DNA of 64,000 bases from Candidatus Absconditabacterales bacterium (GTDB lineage: Bacteria; Patescibacteriota; Gracilibacteria; Absconditabacterales; Absconditicoccaceae), in the NCBI GenBank assembly GCA_937923605.1, contig CALDTY010000003.1:124001-188000 (forward strand), given 5' to 3'. Under the pieces are notes generated by a model. That model was not told the origin of the DNA, ran no database searches, and saw nothing but the letters and a program-made list of their open reading frames with translations. Shown here in pieces: positions 7,141 to 63,371 of the stretch. The stretch's first letter is position 1. Each line of letters begins with the position of its first letter. The translations under genes were made by a program, and so were the position numbers.

Positions 7141-7164
7141 ATTTTATTGTTCACTAAAAATAAA

Positions 7165-7998
7165 ATGCCAGATTTCGAACATCCAGATATTCAGGAAGTT
7201 AGTGAGAAGATTGATACTTCTGAGAACTTAGATCAAACAATTGATGTGTTGTATGATTTACTTTTAAAATTGGATGAAGAGTATGATGAATTATCTTCTG
7301 ATATTGAGACCGAATCTAATAAAATGATACTTGAATTAAATGCAGTAATGTCTGTTTTAACAAGTGATATAATCATTCCATATCTTCAACTTGATGCTTG
7401 AATATCAGATTATTTCCTTGAAGCTACAGCATTAAGACATATGTTTTTTGATTTCTTAGTTGATTGAAATATTGATGAAGATCTTATGAATAGTATGCCA
7501 GAGATGAAAGAAAGTAGAAGGACAAGAATTGAAGAAATCAGAAATCTTAAACCGACATTCAAGGTTTATCCAAATCCGGTAACAGATGTGTTAAATGTGA
7601 CAGTAGATTTTCCCTATAAAATATTGAAAGACAGATCTGGAATTTCATTCCAAGTAGTGGAAATTGGAGGAGGATCAGATATATGAGAATTTGATATATA
7701 TAGTCACTTGCCAGAAATTAATAACGAATGATTTGATAATAGCACTAATGCAAGTGCTAGTTCTGCAAACATGAGAGTTTGAATCTTTGATCTACAGGGC
7801 AACAAAATACTAGATGCATCTCCTACGGTAGATAGTCATTGAAATGTATGAATCCAGGAAGATGTTTCAAATTTACCATCTGGTTGATATGTTATACGTA
7901 TGGAAATTCCTTGAATGGATACAATAGGACCATCTTATACCGAAATTTCTGATGATATTACGAACTGAGTCTATACATCACAATTTATAAAAATATAA
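7165..7998 (+). CDS. Protein with Por-type (T9SS type A) C-terminal sorting domain
   Basis: 277-residue protein. The N-terminal half (residues 1-125) is acidic and helical with no recognised domain and no clear signal peptide. The C-terminal half matches the type IX secretion sorting domain: YPNPVTDVLNV from residue 135, then VGIFDLQGNKIL, DVSNLPSGGYVIRMEI and a final YTSQFIKI. Such domains guide proteins through the T9SS of Bacteroidota, a system not otherwise known in this group. TGA glycines are used (for example in the GGY turn), so the gene is resident in this code. A TTG at 7147 could also start it; ATG 7165 is preferred. It sits between pilin genes. Confidence 0.65.
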
Positions 7999-18380: not shown

Positions 18381-19583
18381 ATGGTAGTACAAGAATTTAA
18401 TCCATCATTTACTCCTGGAGCAAGAATTAAAATTATTTGAGTATGATGATGATGAAATAACTCTGTTCAAAGAATGATCGAAGAGTGATTGGAGGGAGTT
18501 GATTTTGTTGCTGTGAACACAGATGCGCAAGCATTAGCTGGATCTCTTGCTACAAAGAAAATCAATATTGGTCTAAATCTAACAAAAGGTTTAGGAGCAT
18601 GAGCGAATCCTGAGGTAGGTAGAAAATCTGCTGAAGAAAGCGCTGATGATATCAAGGCGATGCTTATGGATGCTGACATGATTTTTGTTACTGCTGGTAT
18701 GTGAGGTGGTACGTGAACTTGAGCTGCTCCAGTAATTGCTCAGATGGCAAGAGAAATGGGTATTTTGACAGTTTGAGTTGTTACAAAACCATTCAGTTTT
18801 GAAGGAAAAAGAAGATTCCAATTTGCATTGGAAGGACTTGAAAGAATGAAGGCTTCTGTTGATACATTGATTGTTATACCTAATGATAAGATATTTAATA
18901 TCATAGACAAAAAAACAACATTCAAACAAGCATTCTCAATGATAGACAAGATTCTATTATTATGAGTTCAAGGAATTGCAGATTTAATTGTAAGACCTGG
19001 AGATATTAATATAGATTTTGCTGACATTAAGATGATTATGTCATGAGCTTGAACTGCATTACTTGGAATTTGATATGGAGAATGAGAAAATAGAGCAGTT
19101 GATGCTGCAAGAAGAGCAATTGATAATCCATTACTAGAAGCTAGTTTAGATTGAGCTCAGAGTATTATATTTGCTGTGACTTGATGAGATGATCTCACAC
19201 CAATGGAAGTTCAAGAGGCATCTAGAGTAGTTGAAGAGATAGCAGATCCAGAAGCGATGATAGTTTGGTGAATGACATTTGATGAAAGTTATCATGGAGA
19301 AGTAAAAGTAACAATTGTTGCTACATGATTTCCGGATATTGTGCAAACATCAATGATAAAAGACATGTGAACTAGAAGAACCGCAAGATCATTTACTGAT
19401 AGAATGTGAGCTTCATGACTTGATAATAGATGAAGTGCTAGAACTTCATGATGAGGTGATTTCGTAAATAGAGCTATGGATGATGAATGAGTTCAAACTC
19501 AAGTTTCAATAGAACAAGAACAACCAAAAAGAGAAGAAGATTTTGAAACACCAGCTTTCTTGAGAAAGAAATTGGCTAGCTAG
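18381..19583 (+). CDS. ftsZ: Cell division GTPase FtsZ
   Basis: Tubulin-like GTPase forming the division ring, 400 residues. The nucleotide loop IIGVGGGGNN starts near residue 23 and is written with consecutive TGA codons; the tubulin signature reads GMGGGTGTGAAPV, with the T7 loop NIDFADI further on. By my hand count 28 of its 47 glycines are TGA. The polar linker ends in [14 protein letters not shown], which contains the conserved C-terminal peptide that binds FtsA. Partner of the preceding gene. Confidence 0.97.
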
Positions 19584-20139: not shown

Positions 20140-20165
20140 TACATTCTTTGATTTTTTCGAATCGC

Positions 20166-20969
20166 ATGACTTGAGTTACATGGTTTCCAATTTTTTCTTC
20201 TACCGATAAATGTCAGCTTCTTTTACAGAAGATACAACATTTGTTTGCACAAACTTTGATGTCAGATAAAACTAATGCTGATATGATTTTAGTGTGATGA
20301 TGAGATTGATGGATGTTGGAGACAATGAGAGCAAATTATATGTTAGATAAACCATTTTTTGGACTACATTGTGGTACTTTATGATTTTTGATGAATAGAT
20401 GTAAAGATAAATCCTGTGATCTTTCATCAGTTACTGAGGATGATCTTACCTTCATCTGCACTGAACTTGAGGAATTAGAGTACATTAATGCAAATAGTAT
20501 CTGAGTTGAAGTTGAATTACTGAGTTGAGATAAAATTGAATGATTCGCTTTCAATGATATCACTATTGGAGAGAGTATTTTAGATTATTTTAGCATGAGT
20601 ATACAATTACCTGCAGAGATAATTGATGTGTCATGAACATGATTAGTTGTAAGCACTCCATTATGATCATCAGGATATGCAACAAATCTTCGCACTCCGT
20701 TACTGCCTTTAGAAAGAGATATTTGGAGTATTTCTTGAATAGGAACAGGGGAGTTTAGTTTTAGTTTTCTTCAACCACAAGAATTTTCTATTTCACTTAA
20801 CTGAAAATCAAAAGCATCAATTTGACTTGATGGATACAATCATGTGATAAAAGATGTAAAGCATATTAGGTTATTTCCATGAAAACAGAAAGCTACTCTT
20901 GCGTTTCATGCATCACAACAATTTTTGACAAGAAGATTGCTTTTAGCAGAGGAAAAAATGTGAAGATAA
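20166..20969 (+). CDS. nadK: NAD kinase
   Basis: ATP-NAD kinase making NADP, 267 residues. The motif LVGGGGDGWMLETMR (GGDG, residues about 43-50) carries TGA glycines, followed by FFGLHCGTLGFLMN (the GxNxGxLGFL block) and STPLGSSGYATNL (the TPTGSTAY block). Start ATG 20166 is 26 bases after atpC; an internal ATG at 20259 would cut away the N-terminal helix. The end is directly followed by the terminator hairpin at 20975, which serves the opposite strand. Confidence 0.88.
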
Positions 20970-21091
20970 AAAAAATGCTTTTGTAAATAACAAAAGCATC
21001 CTTACGCAAACTGTGAATTTTTTAGACCTAAAAAATGAAAATTTAGAATGGCCCTATTTTTGTTTTTGTAAGGATGCAACTACTATTTGAA

Positions 21092-21117
21092 TTCTGGCGT
21101 TAGTCCCAGGCAACTTT
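21092..21117. repeat. 26-base repeat, copy 1
   Basis: Matches 21158-21183 at 24 of 26 positions. Each copy contains CTGG and CCAG arms separated by eight bases, so each could form a small hairpin with a nearly constant loop. Confidence 0.8.
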
Positions 21118-21157
21118 TTTACAGGCTCTTAAGTAGCTTCGCCCGAAGCTATCATAT

Positions 21158-21183
21158 TTCTGGCGTTTGTCCCAGGTAACTTT
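21158..21183. repeat. 26-base repeat, copy 2
   Basis: Second copy; differs from the first by A to T at position 11 and C to T at position 20. The hairpin AGCTTC-GCCC-GAAGCT lies between the copies. Confidence 0.8.
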
Positions 21184-21269: not shown

Positions 21270-21420
21270 AGAAAAAAAGCGACTCTTAAAAAAGAGTCGC
21301 CCATCACAAATTTTACAGATTTTTCTCGACGGTAAGTCTGAGAAAATTAATGTCTTGAGCATATAATGTTCAAGCCTGCATAAAATATTCTTTTATACTT
21401 TTATTTTTGCTTTGGGCGAC
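21270..21420 (-). ncRNA. Candidate structured small RNA with terminator (B)
   Basis: Directly 3' of the ion-channel gene on the minus strand. An outer helix pairs 21413-21420 (GTCGCCCA read on the minus strand) with 21296-21303 (TGGGCGAC); inside is a hairpin CTTGAACAT/ATGCTCAAG. The 3' arm overlaps a strong hairpin, GCGACTCTT / AAGAGTCGC (21279-21300), followed by seven T residues on the minus strand. The layout (outer helix competing with a terminator) is the same as in candidate A. It may be the structured terminator of the channel transcript or a small RNA. Confidence 0.45.
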
Positions 21421-21424
21421 CTAA

Positions 21425-22330
21425 CTATGTAGTTAGAGCTTTTACTTCATCATATGTCTTAGCAGATAATTTATCTGATGGGATATTTACTGTCCCGACG
21501 ATCATATTATCACTTTTAAGTTCATTAATATACTCTAGAAGATCTTGACTAATTCTTTCCGGAGAACTTATTCTTAGTATGATAAATTCTCTTTTGCTAT
21601 TAATCTTCCAGTAATCTAATTTAATTTCCCTTTCTCCACTAAGTTTAACTTCATATCTATCTTTTTCAATGATGGTGCAATTTGGAGTTAATGCTTTCCA
21701 AATTTCTTCACTTTGATATGGTTCAAGAGATAGTGATTCAAAAACATCTAAACTACCATCTTCTCCACGTTTTCCTATTATTGATAGATTATGATTTTCT
21801 AATTGAAACTTTATTTTGTATTCGTTCGTACCTTTCTCTAGTAAGTAAGCTTGTTTTATAAGTAATTCTTTTAGATTAGCTTCCATAAAACGATTCGTAT
21901 ACCTTCTTACCATATCTAGTGATTTATCTTTATAAATAAGATAATTCTCTTCCTTAGTATTTATTCTAGCTTCATTTTTTGATTTTAACTGCAAGCTTTC
22001 TTTTGCTCGATTAAAATACTTATTAATGAGGAAGTATGTTATGAGAAGATAGCCACCCCAGTTTAGGATGATTCCAAAAATTGTATATAGATATCCTAGA
22101 TTTGAATTTGGAGTATATTCTCCTTCTCCAATTCCAGTCATCATATTTAATACATAATAGATTGCCTCATAAACACTTACATAATAATCTGTAGTTAAAG
22201 CGTTTAGATACAATAAAACTATTATAAATAATATTTGAAGAGCACTGATAAGAACAAATTTCTGTTCTCTAAATAAAACTAATGCTACCTCAAGTACAAT
22301 CCCAAATTGTGATTGTTTCTTACGCTTCAT
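21425..22330 (-). CDS. Two-TM potassium-channel-like protein
   Basis: 301-residue protein. Residues 26-46 and about 78-102 form two membrane helices around a pore segment YEAIYYVLNMMTGIGEGEYTP, which aligns with the K+ channel filter TVGYGD but reads TGIGEGE. The remaining 190 residues are a soluble, charged cytoplasmic domain not recognised. Known Ion_trans_2 channels conduct K+; selectivity is uncertain with this filter. The gene has no TGA codons although glycine is common, and lies after an NhaB-type antiporter that shares this trait, so both were probably acquired together as an ion-homeostasis pair. Confidence 0.65.
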   Translation of the reverse strand: MKRKKQSQFGIVLEVALVLFREQKFVLISALQILFIIVLLYLNALTTDYYVSVYEAIYYVLNMMTGIGEGEYTPNSNLGYLYTIFGIILNWGGYLLITYFLINKYFNRAKESLQLKSKNEARINTKEENYLIYKDKSLDMVRRYTNRFMEANLKELLIKQAYLLEKGTNEYKIKFQLENHNLSIIGKRGEDGSLDVFESLSLEPYQSEEIWKALTPNCTIIEKDRYEVKLSGEREIKLDYWKINSKREFIILRISSPERISQDLLEYINELKSDNMIVGTVNIPSDKLSAKTYDEVKALTT

Positions 22331-22356
22331 AGATGTTAAATTTTGTTAGTAATAAG

Positions 22357-22392
22357 GCCACCAAAGTAGTGTTTGAATTCTACTTCGGTGGC
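22357..22392. repeat. 13-bp inverted repeat between antiporter and channel
   Basis: GCCACCAAAGTAG and CTACTTCGGTGGC form a stem with one mismatch and a ten-base loop. There is no T run on either side, so it is not a standard terminator; it may shape the messenger between the two genes. Confidence 0.6.
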
Positions 22393-22411
22393 AAAAATCT
22401 TACGCTATGAT

Positions 22412-24160
22412 CTAGTGATTCAAATCTTGAATATCACTAGAATCATCTGTTTCTTCAGATCCATGAGTACTATGCCCATGAGAATCATCAGATCCATGAG
22501 ACATAGATTCAAGCAGTTTGACTTCAGCCATTACTTTTTCCATAGGAAAAGGCTTATCCTGAATTCTTCCTGTATCATGAACCATTTCAATCCAATATGG
22601 CATACAGTATCGCAACATTGGAATTACTGTAATAGTAAACATAAATGCAAATGGAAGACACATTTTAAGTAACACTTTAGGTGTTAATCCAATTGATTTC
22701 ACAAATGAATTCATAGCCATAAAAAGTAATGGAGCTGAACCTATATAAAGCCATATACTCATTAGTGTGGCTCCACATACTATGCATGCCATAAAAAGTC
22801 GATATAATCTCATTAACTTTATTGGATCATTATCATCAACTGTGATTAAACCCTTTACTACAGCAGAGTTTAATAAGTTCTTAAACAATGTTACCGTGAA
22901 CATATTTTCACTTACTGCTGTCATTCCAGCTGTTGCGACTCCAAATGCAGTAGCTTGAGCAGCAGGATTACCTTCAAATTTTTTAATAGCATATTCTTCA
23001 ACTGGATATTCAAATGTCTTATGTTGCACTAAATTTGCGACTTGTCCAAATAAACAGATCATGATAAATATAACAAATGCCATTATATGTCCAAAATGTT
23101 CACTTAAATACTCATGTTTTTCTGGAGTTACATCAGAATCTGTATCATTATTACCATGCTTATGTTTTACATAATCAGCTCCTTTCATGCACATAACAAA
23201 TACTATAGAAATCAATGCAGCCATATAGATTGTGCCTTCTCCCCACTTGTCTAAAAAAAGCATGACAATAAATCCAACAAATGAAATTCCTTCTATAAGT
23301 ACTGTGTACTTATATCTTGATGTCCACTTTTCTTCTTTGACAGTTTTTTTTAGATTATCCCAAATATATTTTGGCATTTTAGTGCCGTATCCAAATTTTT
23401 GAAATTTTTGACAATATGCTAGTGTACCTAATCCCACAACTAATGTGGTTAAAAATACAGGTAAACATAGCCAGAAAAATTCCCAAAACTCTAGTAGAGC
23501 AGCTAGTGCAGCGATTGGATTATAAGGTTCTGCAGGAATTAAAAGTATTCCAAATATAGTTGCTCCAATACCAGTAGACATTAAATTTGATCTAAGATTA
23601 GCTTCAACTTTAGTGAAATCTTCTTTGGAAACATCCATTTTCAATATTTTACTTCTAATCCCCTTTGCAACAATGATGCCAATTGCAATTACAGTCACAG
23701 CGTCTGCGAATGCTGATATTCCTCCATTAAGTAAACACATAGATAAGCCAACAACTACTGTTCCAGAACTTAATAATAATACTCTTATAAAAAATTCTGT
23801 TATAACTTTTTCGAGCATCATCATAAAGGGTACCACAGTCATAAGCATGAATATAGCAGTTTTTGCATTTACTATTTCATGATTGATTATCTCTGGATTT
23901 ACAAAGCCAAGGAGAATCATTTCTACGACCAAAATTCCCGTTGTTAAACTTGGTAATGCTTTTTCAGTTAAGATAAGCAATACAACAAAGGTTACTAGAA
24001 ATAGTAAAGAGAAAAACACCTCTGGTAGCATGAATCTCAAGGGAACATTTAATACTACCATGAGCATTAAAAATTTCCTTACTCTATGATCCGTTTCTTC
24101 ACCAGCAAAGACATTTTTGAATTCCCCAAACATTTCTTTGCCAAAGTTTAGTATATTCAT
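22412..24160 (-). CDS. nhaB: NhaB-family Na+/H+ antiporter
   Basis: 582-residue membrane transporter, about 12 helices. Segments match NhaB in order: VEMILLGFVNPEIINHEIV, a membrane block ending LLLSSGTVVVGLSMCLLNGG, then ISAFADAVTVIAIGIIVAKG, NLRSNLMSTGIGATIFGILLIPAEPYN in place of the HAGVGTALGG..GEPQN region, FGYGTKMPKYI, and SENMFTVTLF for SDNVFVGTIY. NhaB exchanges sodium for protons across the membrane. The carboxy end is histidine- and acid-rich (SHGSDDSHGHSTHGSEE), perhaps a metal- or pH-sensing tail. I count 37 glycines, none TGA, in a genome where more than half usually are; a recent import is likely. Stop is TAG. Confidence 0.75.
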   Translation of the reverse strand: MNILNFGKEMFGEFKNVFAGEETDHRVRKFLMLMVVLNVPLRFMLPEVFFSLLFLVTFVVLLILTEKALPSLTTGILVVEMILLGFVNPEIINHEIVNAKTAIFMLMTVVPFMMMLEKVITEFFIRVLLLSSGTVVVGLSMCLLNGGISAFADAVTVIAIGIIVAKGIRSKILKMDVSKEDFTKVEANLRSNLMSTGIGATIFGILLIPAEPYNPIAALAALLEFWEFFWLCLPVFLTTLVVGLGTLAYCQKFQKFGYGTKMPKYIWDNLKKTVKEEKWTSRYKYTVLIEGISFVGFIVMLFLDKWGEGTIYMAALISIVFVMCMKGADYVKHKHGNNDTDSDVTPEKHEYLSEHFGHIMAFVIFIMICLFGQVANLVQHKTFEYPVEEYAIKKFEGNPAAQATAFGVATAGMTAVSENMFTVTLFKNLLNSAVVKGLITVDDNDPIKLMRLYRLFMACIVCGATLMSIWLYIGSAPLLFMAMNSFVKSIGLTPKVLLKMCLPFAFMFTITVIPMLRYCMPYWIEMVHDTGRIQDKPFPMEKVMAEVKLLESMSHGSDDSHGHSTHGSEETDDSSDIQDLNH

Positions 24161-24519
24161 TGATTTTAAGTTTTATTTTTGAAAATTAGTTAATTTATCG
24201 ATTTTTTTATAAGTATATCAACTCATGGACTATGTGCCCTCTGACTTCCAAGATCATCTCTCGGAAACGAAAATAATAATGGTTTCATATCCAAGATTTT
24301 TTTGATGATATGTATCATTTTTCTAGCGGTGTAGAAAGATATAGATACATGGAAAATGTTAATTCCGCACTGTATTTAATTATAGAGAAGTAAATACTTC
24401 TTTCAATGGATTGTCAATATGAAGTGTTTATAAAAAAAACATTATCACTATAAAAATAATAGTAATTGAAAATATGGTTTCATCTTTACTCAGACTCAAG
24501 AAAACCTACTATATTAGTT
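24161..24519. other. Intergenic region between nhaB and tsaD
   Basis: 359 bases between divergent genes. A near-palindrome AGAAGTA-AA-TACTTCT at 24386-24401 could be an operator, and TTGTCA (24411) with TATAAA-like hexamers further on may be part of the tsaD promoter. Short frames such as 24223-24324 have no support. No RNA gene recognised. Confidence 0.5.
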
Positions 24520-25608
24520 ATGAAATCAACTACCTTAGCCATTGAATCAACATGTGATGATAGTTCTATAGCAATAGTAACCTTAGCCGGTGGTGATTTT
24601 AAACTTGAAAAAATGATTACTCATACCCAAGGTATGCATCAAAAATACGGTTGAGTTGTTCCTGAATATGCAAGTAGAGAGCATACTGTTTGGTTACCAA
24701 AACTCATTGAAGAAATGAATATTAAACAGTTAAATTGAAAAGTACTCACGTTGATAGATTGAAAAGAGATATATATAGATTCTATCTCTGTTGCTTCGCA
24801 TCCATGATTACCTTGATCTATTGTTGCTTGAGTGAGCACAGCTCATGCTTTATGACATAGTTTTTGACTACCTGTTATTGAAGTTAATCATATTATGTGA
24901 CATGTTTTTTCAATCTTGCTTGATCGTAACATATCTATACTCGATCTTCCGTATTTATGTCTAACCGTAAGTGGAGGTCATAGTGATATATATTTGGTTC
25001 TTGATAATAAAATACATATAGAATCCACATTACATAATCACTTGTTTCATAAACTTGATCATGTATGAGTGTGAGAAGTTATTAATGTGGGACCTTACCA
25101 AGCGATAAAACTTGTTCAAACCATGGATGATGCTGTAGGAGAGGCTTTTGACAAAGTTGCAAAGATGTTAGGATGACCATATCCTGGAGGTCCTTGGATC
25201 AATAAGTTAGCTGCCACATGAGTAAAAGATGAGAGAATAAGTCAACGTCTACGTAAAATTGACATATCGGGACAATTTAGTTTTTCCTGAATTAAAGCCC
25301 AGGTGCATTCATTAATTGAGTATTTGAAAAGAGAGGAGATAGTACTTGATGAGTCTATGCTTGCAAATATTTGTCGGCTGTTTCAAGATCGTGTAACTAC
25401 TGCTTTATCGCAAAAATTTCAACAATCTATTGATACTCATTCTCCAAAAACATTATGAGTTGTTTGATGAGTCTCAGCTAACACCGTCTTGCAAGATAAG
25501 AGTATAGCAATGTGAGAAATTTATTTTCCTACAAAAATACAATACTGTAGTGATAATGCTGCTATGATAGGAGTAGTAGCTCTATTATCATTATTGAAAC
25601 TTGACTAG
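24520..25608 (+). CDS. tsaD: tRNA N6-adenosine threonylcarbamoyltransferase TsaD
   Basis: Universal enzyme that completes the t6A modification at position 37 of ANN-decoding tRNAs, 362 residues. LAIESTCDDSSIAIV opens the protein, GGVVPEYASREH is the first metal-binding block (HTQGMHQKYGG just before), NHIMGHVFS holds the HxxxH iron ligands, then LTVSGGHSDIYLV, DDAVGEAFDKVAKMLG and GGVSANTVL. TGA encodes many of these glycines. Start ATG 24520 fits the family; an in-frame ATG at 24466 would add 18 unrelated residues. Confidence 0.94.
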
Positions 25609-26052: not shown

Positions 26053-26276
26053 GAGGGTTTTTTTATCTTATTTTTTCTCAAGTAATAAAATTAATGATAG
26101 TAGATCATGAACTTGAAAGATCTCAGTTTTCAATTATGAAGTCTATCAATTCCAGTTGGTCTTGTGAAATTTGTGAACAATTAGATATGGACGGTTCACC
26201 AGAAATATTAACTGATGTAGTAATGAATGGCTCTCATAAGATGCTTACGAATAACTGAAATGGATGATCAATATAA
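26016..26276 (+). CDS. Small membrane-anchored protein downstream of HTH gene
   Basis: One N-terminal membrane helix (LFALLMYLGGFFYLIFSQVI) and a soluble part with CEICEQLDMDGS. In code 25 it ends at TAA 26274 (86 residues); under the standard code it would end at TGA 26256, two bases before the next ATG at 26260. Not recognised. It overlaps the HTH gene by ATGA, suggesting coupled translation in the original host. Confidence 0.5.
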
Positions 26277-26421
26277 CGAATTCATATTAATTCATCTGAA
26301 TTCTTGAGAGGCAACAAAAGAGTCAATGGACCGTGTTTATGTTTGTAAGAATTTCGAATTGACTCAAAATCATTTGGCACATCAAAATTTTTCTCTATTC
26401 GTCAAAAACTTGGAGCTATAA
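26260..26421 (+). CDS. Possible third small gene of the HTH operon
   Basis: 53 residues starting MDDQYNEFILIHLNS, then one TGA (glycine in this code), then EATKESMDRVYVCKNFELTQ to a TAA. Position right after the standard-code stop of the previous gene supports it; the internal TGA means it would be read only in code 25 or is cut in two. Weak support. Confidence 0.3.
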
Positions 26422-26695
26422 TCGAATAGTATTTTCACATTTTACGTTTTTTAAATGTATCAACTTTTTTGATGACACTTTGGGTTACGATTCATCAAAT
26501 TCAGTAGATTGTATCTGTTGGGTATACAAAAATACTTCATTTTTGGGCCCATTTCACATAGTATGACATATTTTCTTCAAATGTCGACATTTTGATGTTC
26601 TGCATGTATCAATATAACGCTTTAAAAGGGTATCTACGTATACTTAGATATATCTATTTTGTAAGGATTTATCTGAAAATATACATATAAATTTT

Positions 26696-57334: not shown

Positions 57335-57958
57335 ATGAGTTCAATAATGATCCCAACAAATGGGTACGTAGTTACAAAAACATTGAAACAATTTGGAACA
57401 AAAACATTCCAAGAATTAGAACGTTTCTTGAACGAAAAGTTGACCACCATTGCTGCTGGGCTTGGTGGAGAGTTAGATTCTTCATTCTCTGATCATCTAG
57501 AAAGACAAGGAGCATGTGTTAGAATCATTAATTTGGATGATCCAGGTGTAGAGTATCATGCTCCATTTGGTGTTATTAATACTCAGATGCGACTAAATGA
57601 GACAATGCATAATTCGCATGAAAAAAGTGTAAGATTAAGGTCAGATTATGAGAGTGATTCCATATTTACTTGCTCTGGATGGACAGCTAAACCTGATTTA
57701 GAAGAAAAATCACAGAGAACATATCAAGGCTCAGTTTTATTCTCTGCTGATGTTAGTTATATTATATCAATATCTGGATATGCTGCAGAACTTGATGCAC
57801 TTCTTTGTCTGCTGATTGCGGAATTCTTAGGACTAATTGAATCTGCAACATCTCAAGCAGCTAAAACATTGGTGTATTATCCAAAGATGCCTAAAAATAA
57901 GTATCTCCTTGCATATGAAGCAAAAAGAGAATTGATAAGAAATGCTAATGCTAACTAA
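57335..57958 (+). CDS. Orphan protein without TGA codons
   Basis: 207 residues, not recognised. No signal peptide. A middle part with RRIINLDDPGVEYHAPFG-like sequence (VRIINLDDPGVEYHAPFG) and a helical, hydrophobic stretch AAELDALLCLLIAEFLGLIE near 150-170. All of about twelve glycines are GGN; neighbours use TGA freely. It has its own promoter and terminator, so it stands as a single imported unit. Confidence 0.6.
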   Translation: MSSIMIPTNGYVVTKTLKQFGTKTFQELERFLNEKLTTIAAGLGGELDSSFSDHLERQGACVRIINLDDPGVEYHAPFGVINTQMRLNETMHNSHEKSVRLRSDYESDSIFTCSGWTAKPDLEEKSQRTYQGSVLFSADVSYIISISGYAAELDALLCLLIAEFLGLIESATSQAAKTLVYYPKMPKNKYLLAYEAKRELIRNANAN

Positions 57959-61338: not shown

Positions 61339-61722
61339 TTACTCAAATTTTATACTATATTCATGTTTATTTGCATAAAAATCATTCAATCCTGACCAAC
61401 TGATTATCATCAAGATATTGAGTAAATTAAGTACAAGTACCGCTAAGAAAGAGTAGAAGACAAGAGAAATAAAAATACTTAGAGGTAGTATGAACAAAAT
61501 AAGATATTCAAACCTATCATTTGCTGAAGATCTAGCAGTAAATAAGCAAATACATAAAAAGATAATTTGATTTATTGCTATAAAGCTATAGTCGAATTGA
61601 TGTGTTTGAAACCATAACAATTCGAAATCAGTACAAAGTATTTTTCCAATTAATACAGCAATTATTGATACAAATATTGCTCCTATAGTTAATTGTTTTA
61701 AAGATATTGCGTATGCTCCCAT
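61339..61722 (-). CDS. Four-TM membrane protein, unknown
   Basis: 127 residues, four hydrophobic helices, with a loop TARSSANDRFEYLILFILP. Not recognised. Last gene of the TGA-free operon, 25 bases after the previous stop. Confidence 0.55.
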   Translation of the reverse strand: MGAYAISLKQLTIGAIFVSIIAVLIGKILCTDFELLWFQTHQFDYSFIAINQIIFLCICLFTARSSANDRFEYLILFILPLSIFISLVFYSFLAVLVLNLLNILMIISWSGLNDFYANKHEYSIKFE

Positions 61723-61747
61723 AGTGTTGTGTTTTTAGTTTACGAAA

Positions 61748-62647
61748 TTACAATTCAGGACAGCCAATGATGTCTTTGTTGGACTGTACGCTTAACAGAG
61801 GGATATTATTTCCTGCACCAAGGTTGTTAGATGCTAAAGTAATTATATTAGATCCATTAAGCTTTAGTGGATTTTTATATACCGTCATTCCTTTTCTCAT
61901 TTTTAATGTCGTAATGCTAATTGCTTTGAATCCTTTGTGATTCATGTTAAATACATTTTCTTGTTTAGCTTCACTCACATATGCTTTACCTATATTCATT
62001 CTGACAACAAGGTCAGATATGTCAGGCTTATGATGAATCGATACAGATGGAATAATGACAGCGTCATATCCCATTTCAAGAGTTGAACTATTAATTTCAT
62101 TTGGTCTTCTCATGATATCGAGAGATTTTTTATAAAGTTCAAATCCTTCATAATACTCATCAACTGGAGTGATAATTACTCTATACATGCCACCAGTAGA
62201 AAAGACACTTACAGAATTCGTTGATGCATGATGTACCATATCATTAAAAGCAATGCCACTATCTTCGCCATGATCATGTCCTTCAATATCAACTAAATTT
62301 GTTTTCTGTGCTTTTCTATCATATTCTCTCAGAATGTTAAACAAACCAACGACTCCAAAGTCAGGAGGTGTTATTTTGTTAAATTCAAGTGTACCTTCAT
62401 TTTCTTTGATAAAGGCATTTAGTTTATGGTGGTCTTGACCTGCCATACATTTTACACTTGGATCTCTTAGTAAGATAGGTATCTGAGATACATTTCTCTT
62501 GTAGTGCTGAATTACTTCTCTTTGTATATTAGTTCCTCCAAGTAAAGGGTTAGTCAATTGTTGAAAGTCTAATGCCTTATGTATCGCTAGAAAAATAGTT
62601 GCTATCGATATACTATTTGATGGTTTATTGAATACTTCGTGATTCAT
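61748..62647 (-). CDS. Unknown protein of imported operon
   Basis: 299 residues, soluble. Histidine-rich middle part (VDIEGHDHGEDSG, DMVHHASTNS, VSIHHKPDISD) could bind metal. I do not recognise a family. About twenty glycines, none TGA. Starts ten bases after the cyclase gene, so the two work together. Confidence 0.6.
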   Translation of the reverse strand: MNHEVFNKPSNSISIATIFLAIHKALDFQQLTNPLLGGTNIQREVIQHYKRNVSQIPILLRDPSVKCMAGQDHHKLNAFIKENEGTLEFNKITPPDFGVVGLFNILREYDRKAQKTNLVDIEGHDHGEDSGIAFNDMVHHASTNSVSVFSTGGMYRVIITPVDEYYEGFELYKKSLDIMRRPNEINSSTLEMGYDAVIIPSVSIHHKPDISDLVVRMNIGKAYVSEAKQENVFNMNHKGFKAISITTLKMRKGMTVYKNPLKLNGSNIITLASNNLGAGNNIPLLSVQSNKDIIGCPEL

Positions 62648-62657
62648 ATGTTGATTT

Positions 62658-63371
62658 TTATAATTTGAAATTTTTTATTAATTTGATTGTTGATGGGACG
62701 GCATCCATTTTTGGATAAGCTGATGGGGTGATATTTATTTTGTAGCTTCCATCTTGTATTTTCATTGGAATATATACTAACTCAGTAATGGTGTTTTCAT
62801 ATCTCCAATGATTATTATAAAAAAATGCTTTATGTGCCATCATGAGTCCAGCTGAATTTTCTCTTTCTACACTTGGTAAATCAGTTACAAAATGATTTAC
62901 TTTATTTCCTATCCATTTCATAGCTTCATTGCTAAAATAAATTGGATTAGTATTAGAAAAAGAATCAATTTTCTTGTTTAATGCTCGAACAACTAAACAG
63001 TCTACATCTTTTAATTGTTCTTCATTTACTACATCTAGTAGATTTTCAAGTGTAATAACCGAGTCAATTTCGCCGTCAATATTACTACTAATTTTAGTGT
63101 TTTTAACAGTAGTTAGAAGACTATTCATCAAAAAAGGCATTTTAATGTTATGAATATATGGGCCATCGTTTACAACATGTCTACAAGATTCGGTATGAGT
63201 TGTAATGCCATGAACCATTACACCATCAATAATGTAATTGTTAAATGACTTTCCTGCTTTGATTGAAGTTTCACCATATCCTTCGATATTCATCGGATAG
63301 GTTTTGTAAAGTTCTAAACCACCGTAAGCATCGACGGTTCCCACAGCTCGTGTAATGTTAAAGATTTCCAT
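62658..63371 (-). CDS. Cyclase family (kynurenine-formamidase-like) hydrolase
   Basis: 237 residues of the PF04199-type cyclase family. GITTHTESCRHVV takes the place of the HxGTHxDxPxH metal motif, DVDCLVVRALN and NPIYFSNEAMKWIGNK the middle, DLPSVERENSAG, MAHKAFF and TITELVYIPMKIQDGSYKINI the end; the last blocks closely match family members common in Bacteroidota. In the metal motif the GTH is TES, so the ligands are partly changed. About 13 glycines, none TGA; TAA stop. First gene of a three-gene operon, likely imported. Confidence 0.7.
   Translation of the reverse strand: MEIFNITRAVGTVDAYGGLELYKTYPMNIEGYGETSIKAGKSFNNYIIDGVMVHGITTHTESCRHVVNDGPYIHNIKMPFLMNSLLTTVKNTKISSNIDGEIDSVITLENLLDVVNEEQLKDVDCLVVRALNKKIDSFSNTNPIYFSNEAMKWIGNKVNHFVTDLPSVERENSAGLMMAHKAFFYNNHWRYENTITELVYIPMKIQDGSYKINITPSAYPKMDAVPSTIKLIKNFKL

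Follow-up and report, generated by a model that had tools for sequence, protein, structure and literature searches.

Two ion-transport genes without TGA codons in an Absconditabacterales chromosome that reads TGA as glycine, and the wider class of TGA-free genes around them

How do two neighbouring genes come to hold no TGA codon in a chromosome that writes many of its glycines as TGA? The question is raised by a 64,000-nucleotide stretch from Candidatus Absconditabacterales bacterium (assembly GCA_937923605.1, contig CALDTY010000003.1; G000:C3:124001-188000), referred to here as the window. The genome, G000, is a 34-contig draft of 1,310,105 bases with an estimated contamination of 2.64%. Open reading frames (ORFs) were called with code 25, in which TGA is glycine and not a stop. 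The pair consists of the following genes:

21425..22330, minus strand: gene for a NaK-like channel with two transmembrane segments (2TM), a pore loop and a C-terminal region (301 aa, 0 of 14 glycines TGA, stop TAG), recognised by a PDB match and a homologue in the sister species G003
22412..24160, minus strand: gene for an NhaB-like antiporter (582 aa, 0 of 37 glycines TGA, stop TAG), recognised by Pfam family PF06450 and a structure model

Glycine in the antiporter gene is encoded by 21 GGA, 7 GGT, 6 GGC and 3 GGG codons, and in the channel gene by 8 GGA, 3 GGT, 1 GGC and 2 GGG. By comparison, 28 of the 47 glycines of ftsZ (18381-19583) are TGA; this and the other core gene names at the locus (ftsA, atpC, nadK, tsaD, tsaE, sua5) are presumed ones, assigned from the sequences rather than obtained by family search. 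Pooled over the 43 host genes of the window, TGA accounts for 742 of 1132 glycines (0.655), while CGA is used 92 times and is read as arginine. At the host rate, log10 P is -17.1 for 0/37 and -6.5 for 0/14, which excludes chance as the cause. The original prediction had given the same TGA counts for the pair and ftsZ, the same coordinates and strand and two TAG stops, and had called a run of 37 such glycines vanishingly unlikely; all of this is confirmed.

The best-supported answer, to which a probability of roughly 60% is assigned, is that the pair is an ion-transport module whose arrival post-dates the split from G003: it reached an exchange hotspot by horizontal transfer out of standard-code bacteria. 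An NhaB-related antiporter and a NaK-like channel would have entered a code-25 Gracilibacteria-type chromosome between nadK and tsaD/sua5, lacking TGA because it was a stop in their source and residing there too briefly to gain any. The pair would belong to a TGA-free class of accessory genes, in part of Bacteroidota type, and probably shares the origin of that class. Transfer is supported by the patchy distribution of NhaB and the channel, by the runs in which TGA-free genes occur and by the varied cargo that follows nadK. A standard-code source had been proposed from the start; the support for it comes mainly from the whole TGA-free class, and the pair's own tree adds none.

The class was delineated in a G000 sample of 339,647 bases, made up of the window and 16 further stretches, with ORFs called mechanically under a greedy non-overlap rule. 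The core of each ORF starts after codon 30 and leaves off the final 10 codons; to be scored, an ORF needed 10 or more core glycines. TGA-free ORFs number 30 of the 208 scored, about one in seven, and together hold 613 glycines, none of them TGA. The TGA share of glycine lies between 0.1 and 0.3 in three ORFs and mostly between 0.5 and 0.9 in the rest; no ORF falls above 0 and up to 0.1. TGA-free ORFs are clustered in runs, with 20 adjacent pairs against a shuffled mean of 6.76 and maximum of 14 (5000 shuffles; ORFs with at least five core glycines, 43 of 252 TGA-free). Other members in the window are a lone ORF at 57335-57958 (207 aa, 0/12 glycines), some shorter ones and an adjacent group within 61339-63371, comprising 61748-62647 (0/20), 62658-63371 (0/13, matching Cyclase PF04199) and a small neighbour.

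Pfam-named members of the class in G000 include an adenylosuccinate synthetase, an ABC transporter, an OmpA-family protein and an aldehyde dehydrogenase, and three of the ten TGA-free G000 proteins searched have no Pfam match. The adenylosuccinate synthetase (L156:15867-17048) is the sole copy in G000, and no match to it was found in the genus mates G001-G004. Samples of other code-25 relatives contain TGA-free ORFs at 7 of 266 in G002, 6 of 262 in G003, 0 of 139 in G009 and 8 of 91 in G013, where 0.23, 0.16, 0.00 and 0.28, respectively, are expected by chance. Within one family, TGA makes up 0.33-0.39 of glycine codons in G002, G003 and G013 versus 0.67-0.72 in G000 and G009.

As far as sequence can tell, this class shows standard-code ancestry, in its Bacteroidota-type secreted proteins and in a probable stop fossil. 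Some TGA-free proteins carry, in our reading, Bacteroidota-like signal peptides. The sorting domain Por_Secre_tail (PF18962) is linked with the Bacteroidota type IX secretion system. It has 43 matches, spread over 17 of 37 relatives. The window's family accounts for 39 of them; 36 of these are free of stops along the matched segment, and for 30 the surrounding standard-code open frame is 280 aa or longer. Fifteen of the 39 genes were checked (L287-L301), and in 14 of them, from ten code-25 genomes, none of 1052 core glycines is TGA, with neighbouring genes at 0.17-0.86. The fifteenth (L290:6629-8056, genome G010) has a lone TGA at codon 418, four codons past the end of a sorting domain at residues 350-414 and followed by a 57-residue tail. 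The simplest explanation is that this codon is probably the donor's old stop, now read as glycine, and two further frames (L156:5639-6226 and L258:4024-4950) end in a similar way. For the type IX machinery, a search of the 37 genomes with SprA_N and GldM_1st, which had no positive Bacteroidota control, came back empty. The window itself contains a relative of the TGA-free sorting-tail proteins, a PF18962 match at 7147-7998 that is TGA-rich (10 of 17 glycines); the sorting-tail family can therefore adapt to code 25.

The same all-or-none pattern could arise if these genes formed a code-bilingual mobile pool, shuttling between code-25 and standard-code cells so that any TGA would fail in one of the hosts. 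This reading accounts for zero TGA without intermediates and for the ends of 35 long TGA-free frames, of which 34 have no TGA even there and one has a later TGA. Code-11-compatible phages of Gracilibacteria offer a precedent, described in the available text of PMC10746230, where the prophages are all TGA-rich; like the window pair, the genes of such phages are free of in-frame TGA although their host uses code 25, whereas the pair consists of chromosomal transport genes. Missing TGA stops are expected in any case, as only 7 of 101 AT-rich standard-code genes stop at TGA, and for the same reason the rarity of trailing TGA was rejected as evidence against raw import. No mobile-element gene was found beside the pair among the neighbouring genes searched, the antiporter has no PHROGs match, and three frames in the genus or family have probable TGA stops at their ends. 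A bilingual pool is rated as distinctly unlikely. Phage origin as such was rejected on the missing PHROGs match and on the channel's weak ones (E 0.004). A related proposal, less probable still, is that TGA-free genes are kept standard-code-readable through being shared with, or expressed in, the standard-code partner cells of a code-25 epibiont. If so, type IX sorting tails, present where no core protein of the system itself was matched, would address cargo to a Bacteroidota envelope, with the pair as a further set of this kind.

The site of the pair can be compared among sister species. Its flanks in the window are as follows:

20148..20969, plus strand: nadK-like gene, one flank of the exchange site (17 of 24 glycines TGA)
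24466..25608, plus strand: tsaD-like gene, the other flank (18 of 31 glycines TGA)
26063..26605, minus strand: sua5-like gene, the flank common to G002 and G003 (11 of 13 glycines TGA)

The order in G000 is ftsA, ftsZ, atpC, nadK, the channel and NhaB-like genes on the minus strand, tsaD, a small regulator, sua5 and a gene for a 1066-aa ATPase. G003 has ftsA, ftsZ, a channel-like gene, NhaB, sua5 and the ATPase gene in the same relative orientation, with atpC probably lying between ftsZ and the pair, to judge from an opposite-strand ORF. Neither G003 gene uses TGA (NhaB 0/40 glycines, channel 0/11). In G002 the order is ftsA, ftsZ, atpC, nadK, NhaB and sua5; NhaB stands alone, without a channel, and 1 of its 36 glycines is TGA, at codon 6, upstream of the start of the G003 protein. 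In G001, tsaE and tsaD come after nadK, and neither NhaB nor a TGA-free gene separates them from it; in G004 (L070:732-3052) the end of nadK is followed by a TGA-free glycosyltransferase gene (0/15), a methyltransferase gene (0/11) and a third ORF. The spot next to nadK therefore holds differing TGA-free cargo from species to species. Joint acquisition, as the original prediction had it, is plausible given that G003 has the same two gene types in the same order, orientation and place.

An assembly or binning artefact, through foreign contigs or chimeric joins, would be consistent with the draft state and the contamination estimate given above. It is very improbable, as the pair has TGA-rich genes on both sides within a contig of 214,533 bases and the G003 pair occupies the same junction.

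The two pairs are not vertical orthologues. G000 and G003 share 92% identity in FtsZ, 87% in FtsA, 80% in the 1066-aa ATPase and 61% in Sua5; the values drop to 26% for NhaB and 27% for the channel. The channels are still related along most of their length (24%, E 1e-6). Among the aligned glycines of FtsZ, FtsA, the ATPase and Sua5, 63 of the 108 encoded by GGN in G003 are TGA in G000, so 51 glycines would hardly have stayed clear of TGA in a gene that had been present since the split with nothing to prevent change (chance about 4e-20). The acquisition can be called recent only with respect to the split from G003 and provided that selection does not act against TGA.

Selection is accordingly the alternative to be weighed here. 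It supposes that the pair has long resided in a locus of the genus and has been purged of TGA, for example because it is expressed when the TGA-reading glycine tRNA is scarce. Several observations weigh against acquisition, and some of them favour selection directly. Three species have TGA-less NhaB-type genes at one site, a coincidence if each was imported independently. NhaB of G002 and G003 is 74% identical and, at four-fold sites, as diverged (105/156) as FtsA (63/94); of the 30 glycines shared by the two NhaB genes, 20 differ in their GGN codon and none is TGA, where 38 of 79 glycine pairs in FtsZ and FtsA together are without TGA. The GGN split of NhaB also matches its own host in G002 (p 0.88) and G003 (p 0.34). 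The NhaB genes of G002 and G003 were either separately imported or protected, and this is the strongest point for selection. Intermediate TGA shares are lacking in the sample, where steady import should leave a few ORFs at the start of TGA gain and none of the 208 is found there. Two further points tell against import: no mobile-element border was seen around the pair, the neighbouring genes having been only partly searched for integrases, although such borders had been named in the original prediction as a check; and no donor or close relative was found in plasmid, viral-contig and genome scans.

Against selection stand the 26% identity of G000 and G003 NhaB, which are not orthologues, and the patchy Bacteroidota-type genes and probable donor stop fossil in the class. 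TGA-free genes are also few or nil in other code-25 genomes, with none among the 139 scored ORFs of G009. In addition, the whole codon table of G002 NhaB is nearer that of G003 than that of its own host, a shift seen in only 6% of G002 host genes. Selection, a serious rival, is rated as rather unlikely. It had been anticipated that selection would be suggested if the nearest homologues all lay in code-25 genomes and also lacked TGA. The positional homologues in the code-25 sister species do lack it, but they are no nearer to the window antiporter than gammaproteobacterial NhaB is.

Codon usage gives a mixed picture of how far the TGA-free genes have settled in. Apart from glycine and arginine, it resembles that of host genes, and 29 of the 30 TGA-free genes fit the G000 codon table best of five, which again speaks against import. 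As a control, 75 of 113 AT-rich standard-code genes (two of them taken from the window's antiporter locus, L009) likewise fit the G000 table best. The TGA-free genes fit it better than the controls do (median percentile 0.27 vs 0.07, p 2.6e-4). Host-table fit as a sign of adjustment to the host was rejected, as the controls behave much alike. The codon comparison suggested in the original prediction therefore finds host-like usage beyond glycine that AT-rich standard-code genes largely share. In G002, whose host genes are higher in GC, the GC content of synonymous third positions (GC3s) is 0.258 in TGA-free genes versus 0.369 in host genes (p = 0.002), a difference that is not significant in G003 (p 0.061) or G013 (p 0.8). 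The GGN split departs from that of the host in the G003 channel gene (p 0.00015) and in the window NhaB-like gene (p 0.029). Together, the codon usage evidence leans towards AT-rich donors.

PF06450 is thinly scattered among relatives. It is matched at E 0.001 by 32 of 353 class genomes, with 14 above the family cut-off; four (G002, G003, G250 and G334) have an NhaB above 600 bits, and the window copy is weak. The window antiporter is matched only in G000 and G250 among 379 genomes drawn from the phylum, and a full-length homologue of the channel occurs only in G003 among the 353 class genomes. In the tree, which includes two wrongly extracted rows (L140 and L142), NhaB of G002, G003 and G334 groups beside Gammaproteobacteria (SH-aLRT 99), and the window antiporter lies on a saturated branch outside the remaining NhaB rows. 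A genome scan with the family alignment confirmed at least 515 relatives from at least 589 pattern matches. To the best 80 of these at least 515 relatives the window antiporter is 22-27% identical, and its branch falls outside those 80 loci; the phylogeny that had been recommended shows no donor clade for the protein. The genome scan with the window protein alone returned no relatives, two viral-contig scans gave no match, and the plasmid relatives comprise 16 records, each below 25% identity.

What the pair would do is suggested by the two proteins and by three sites within them:

23702..23704, minus strand: codon of antiporter Asp153, equivalent to Asp146 of KpNhaB by alignment
22907..22909, minus strand: codon of antiporter Glu418, where KpNhaB has Asp404, by alignment
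22109..22138, minus strand: channel pore filter TGIGEGEYTP, residues 65-74, placed by alignment to NaK entries and by positions in common with the G003 protein

The antiporter passes the PF06450 cut-off (117.1 vs 27 bits) along residues 18-533 and falls below the equivalog thresholds TIGR00774 (119.4/826.1 bits) and PRK09547 (126.9/640 bits); a CitMHS match is below its own cut-off. It keeps 55 of the 145 columns invariant in 19 NhaBs. Asp153 preserves one of the two substrate-site aspartates of KpNhaB and Glu418 replaces the other, a mapping that was verified against a Klebsiella locus, where the spacing is 258. According to the accessible part of PMC6817889, Glu mutants of these aspartates in KpNhaB kept most function, and Glu at the homologue of Asp146 in VaNhaB abolished exchange; this site is Asp in the window antiporter. 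The structure model (pLDDT 73.7, pTM 0.73) was built on an alignment that held 19 NhaBs and so leans to the NhaB fold. It predicts an ion-transporter superfamily fold and aligns to ArsB (10tp_A, Z 22.8, rmsd 4.7, 420 residues) and to the DASS/INDY proteins NaS1, NaDC3 and INDY (Z about 20-22), whose sequence identity to the antiporter is only about 10-15%. With NhaB the protein shares the full-length Pfam match, the Asp146 equivalent and the predicted fold. It differs in the missed equivalog scores, the loss of the NTGTN/TPNGQAA stretch, Glu for Asp404, an extra loop and a His-rich tail. These features make it, by all appearances, a remote NhaB relative. Na+/H+ exchange is likely, and the transported ion is uncertain; the protein would move Na+ or another ion against H+.

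The channel aligns to NaK over its two helices and pore loop (phmmer E 4e-4), and the top entry has VGEG. Its match to Ion_trans_2 reaches 16 bits, below the 22.5 cut-off, and its single-sequence model is poor (pLDDT 42.8). The VGDG/VGEG filter of NaK lines up with IGEG in the channel, which differs in a Gly before the filter (TG-IGEG) and in its C-terminal region, some 190 residues that match no Pfam family. The filter of NaK conducts cations non-selectively, as stated in the available text of PMC9822992. Potassium control, part of the original prediction, finds no support, as the K+-selective TVGYG filter is not in the channel and IGEGEYTP aligns with non-selective NaK. From its sequence, the channel is expected to be non-selective or of altered selectivity, and it may leak cations under the control of its C-terminal region. 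An antiporter working against H+ combined with such a leak would tune cation and pH balance. The authors of the Vampirococcus study, in the portion of PMC8080830 at hand, regard cation homeostasis as the role of the antiporters in such cells.

Two further features accompany the pair:

22357..22392, minus strand: strong hairpin between the channel and antiporter genes, with a 13-bp stem (fold z -5.4)
21277..21302, minus strand: terminator-like hairpin with a T run, downstream of the channel gene

Two 35-nt repeats, 83% alike, lie in 21083-21183 (starting at 21083 and 21149). Their 18-nt core has no other occurrence in G000, and they fold no better than shuffled sequences; as candidates for mobile-element borders they were set aside on these two grounds. 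A promoter scan returned sites no more numerous than in shuffles.

Gene transfer into such cells has been described. As far as the accessible text of each paper goes, Vampirococcus acquired 126 genes by transfer, the isolation of recoded genomes from gene exchange is argued both ways (both PMC8080830), and lateral transfer is noted in a Gracilibacterium (PMC6851277); further papers on code 25, likewise available in part, are PMC13059738 and PMC11452946. A literature search covering few subscription journals turned up neither a TGA-free class of chromosomal genes nor Gracilibacteria sorting-tail proteins, and no paper joining 'type IX secretion' and 'Gracilibacteria'.

Taken alone, the pair is modest; the all-or-none TGA class is the interesting part. 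The missing intermediates pose the question of whether imports turn over rapidly or are actively protected from TGA. G000 genes fall into a TGA-rich and a TGA-free group with hardly any intermediates, so the recoded codon itself marks immigrants, and each gene can be judged for import with no need of a donor database.

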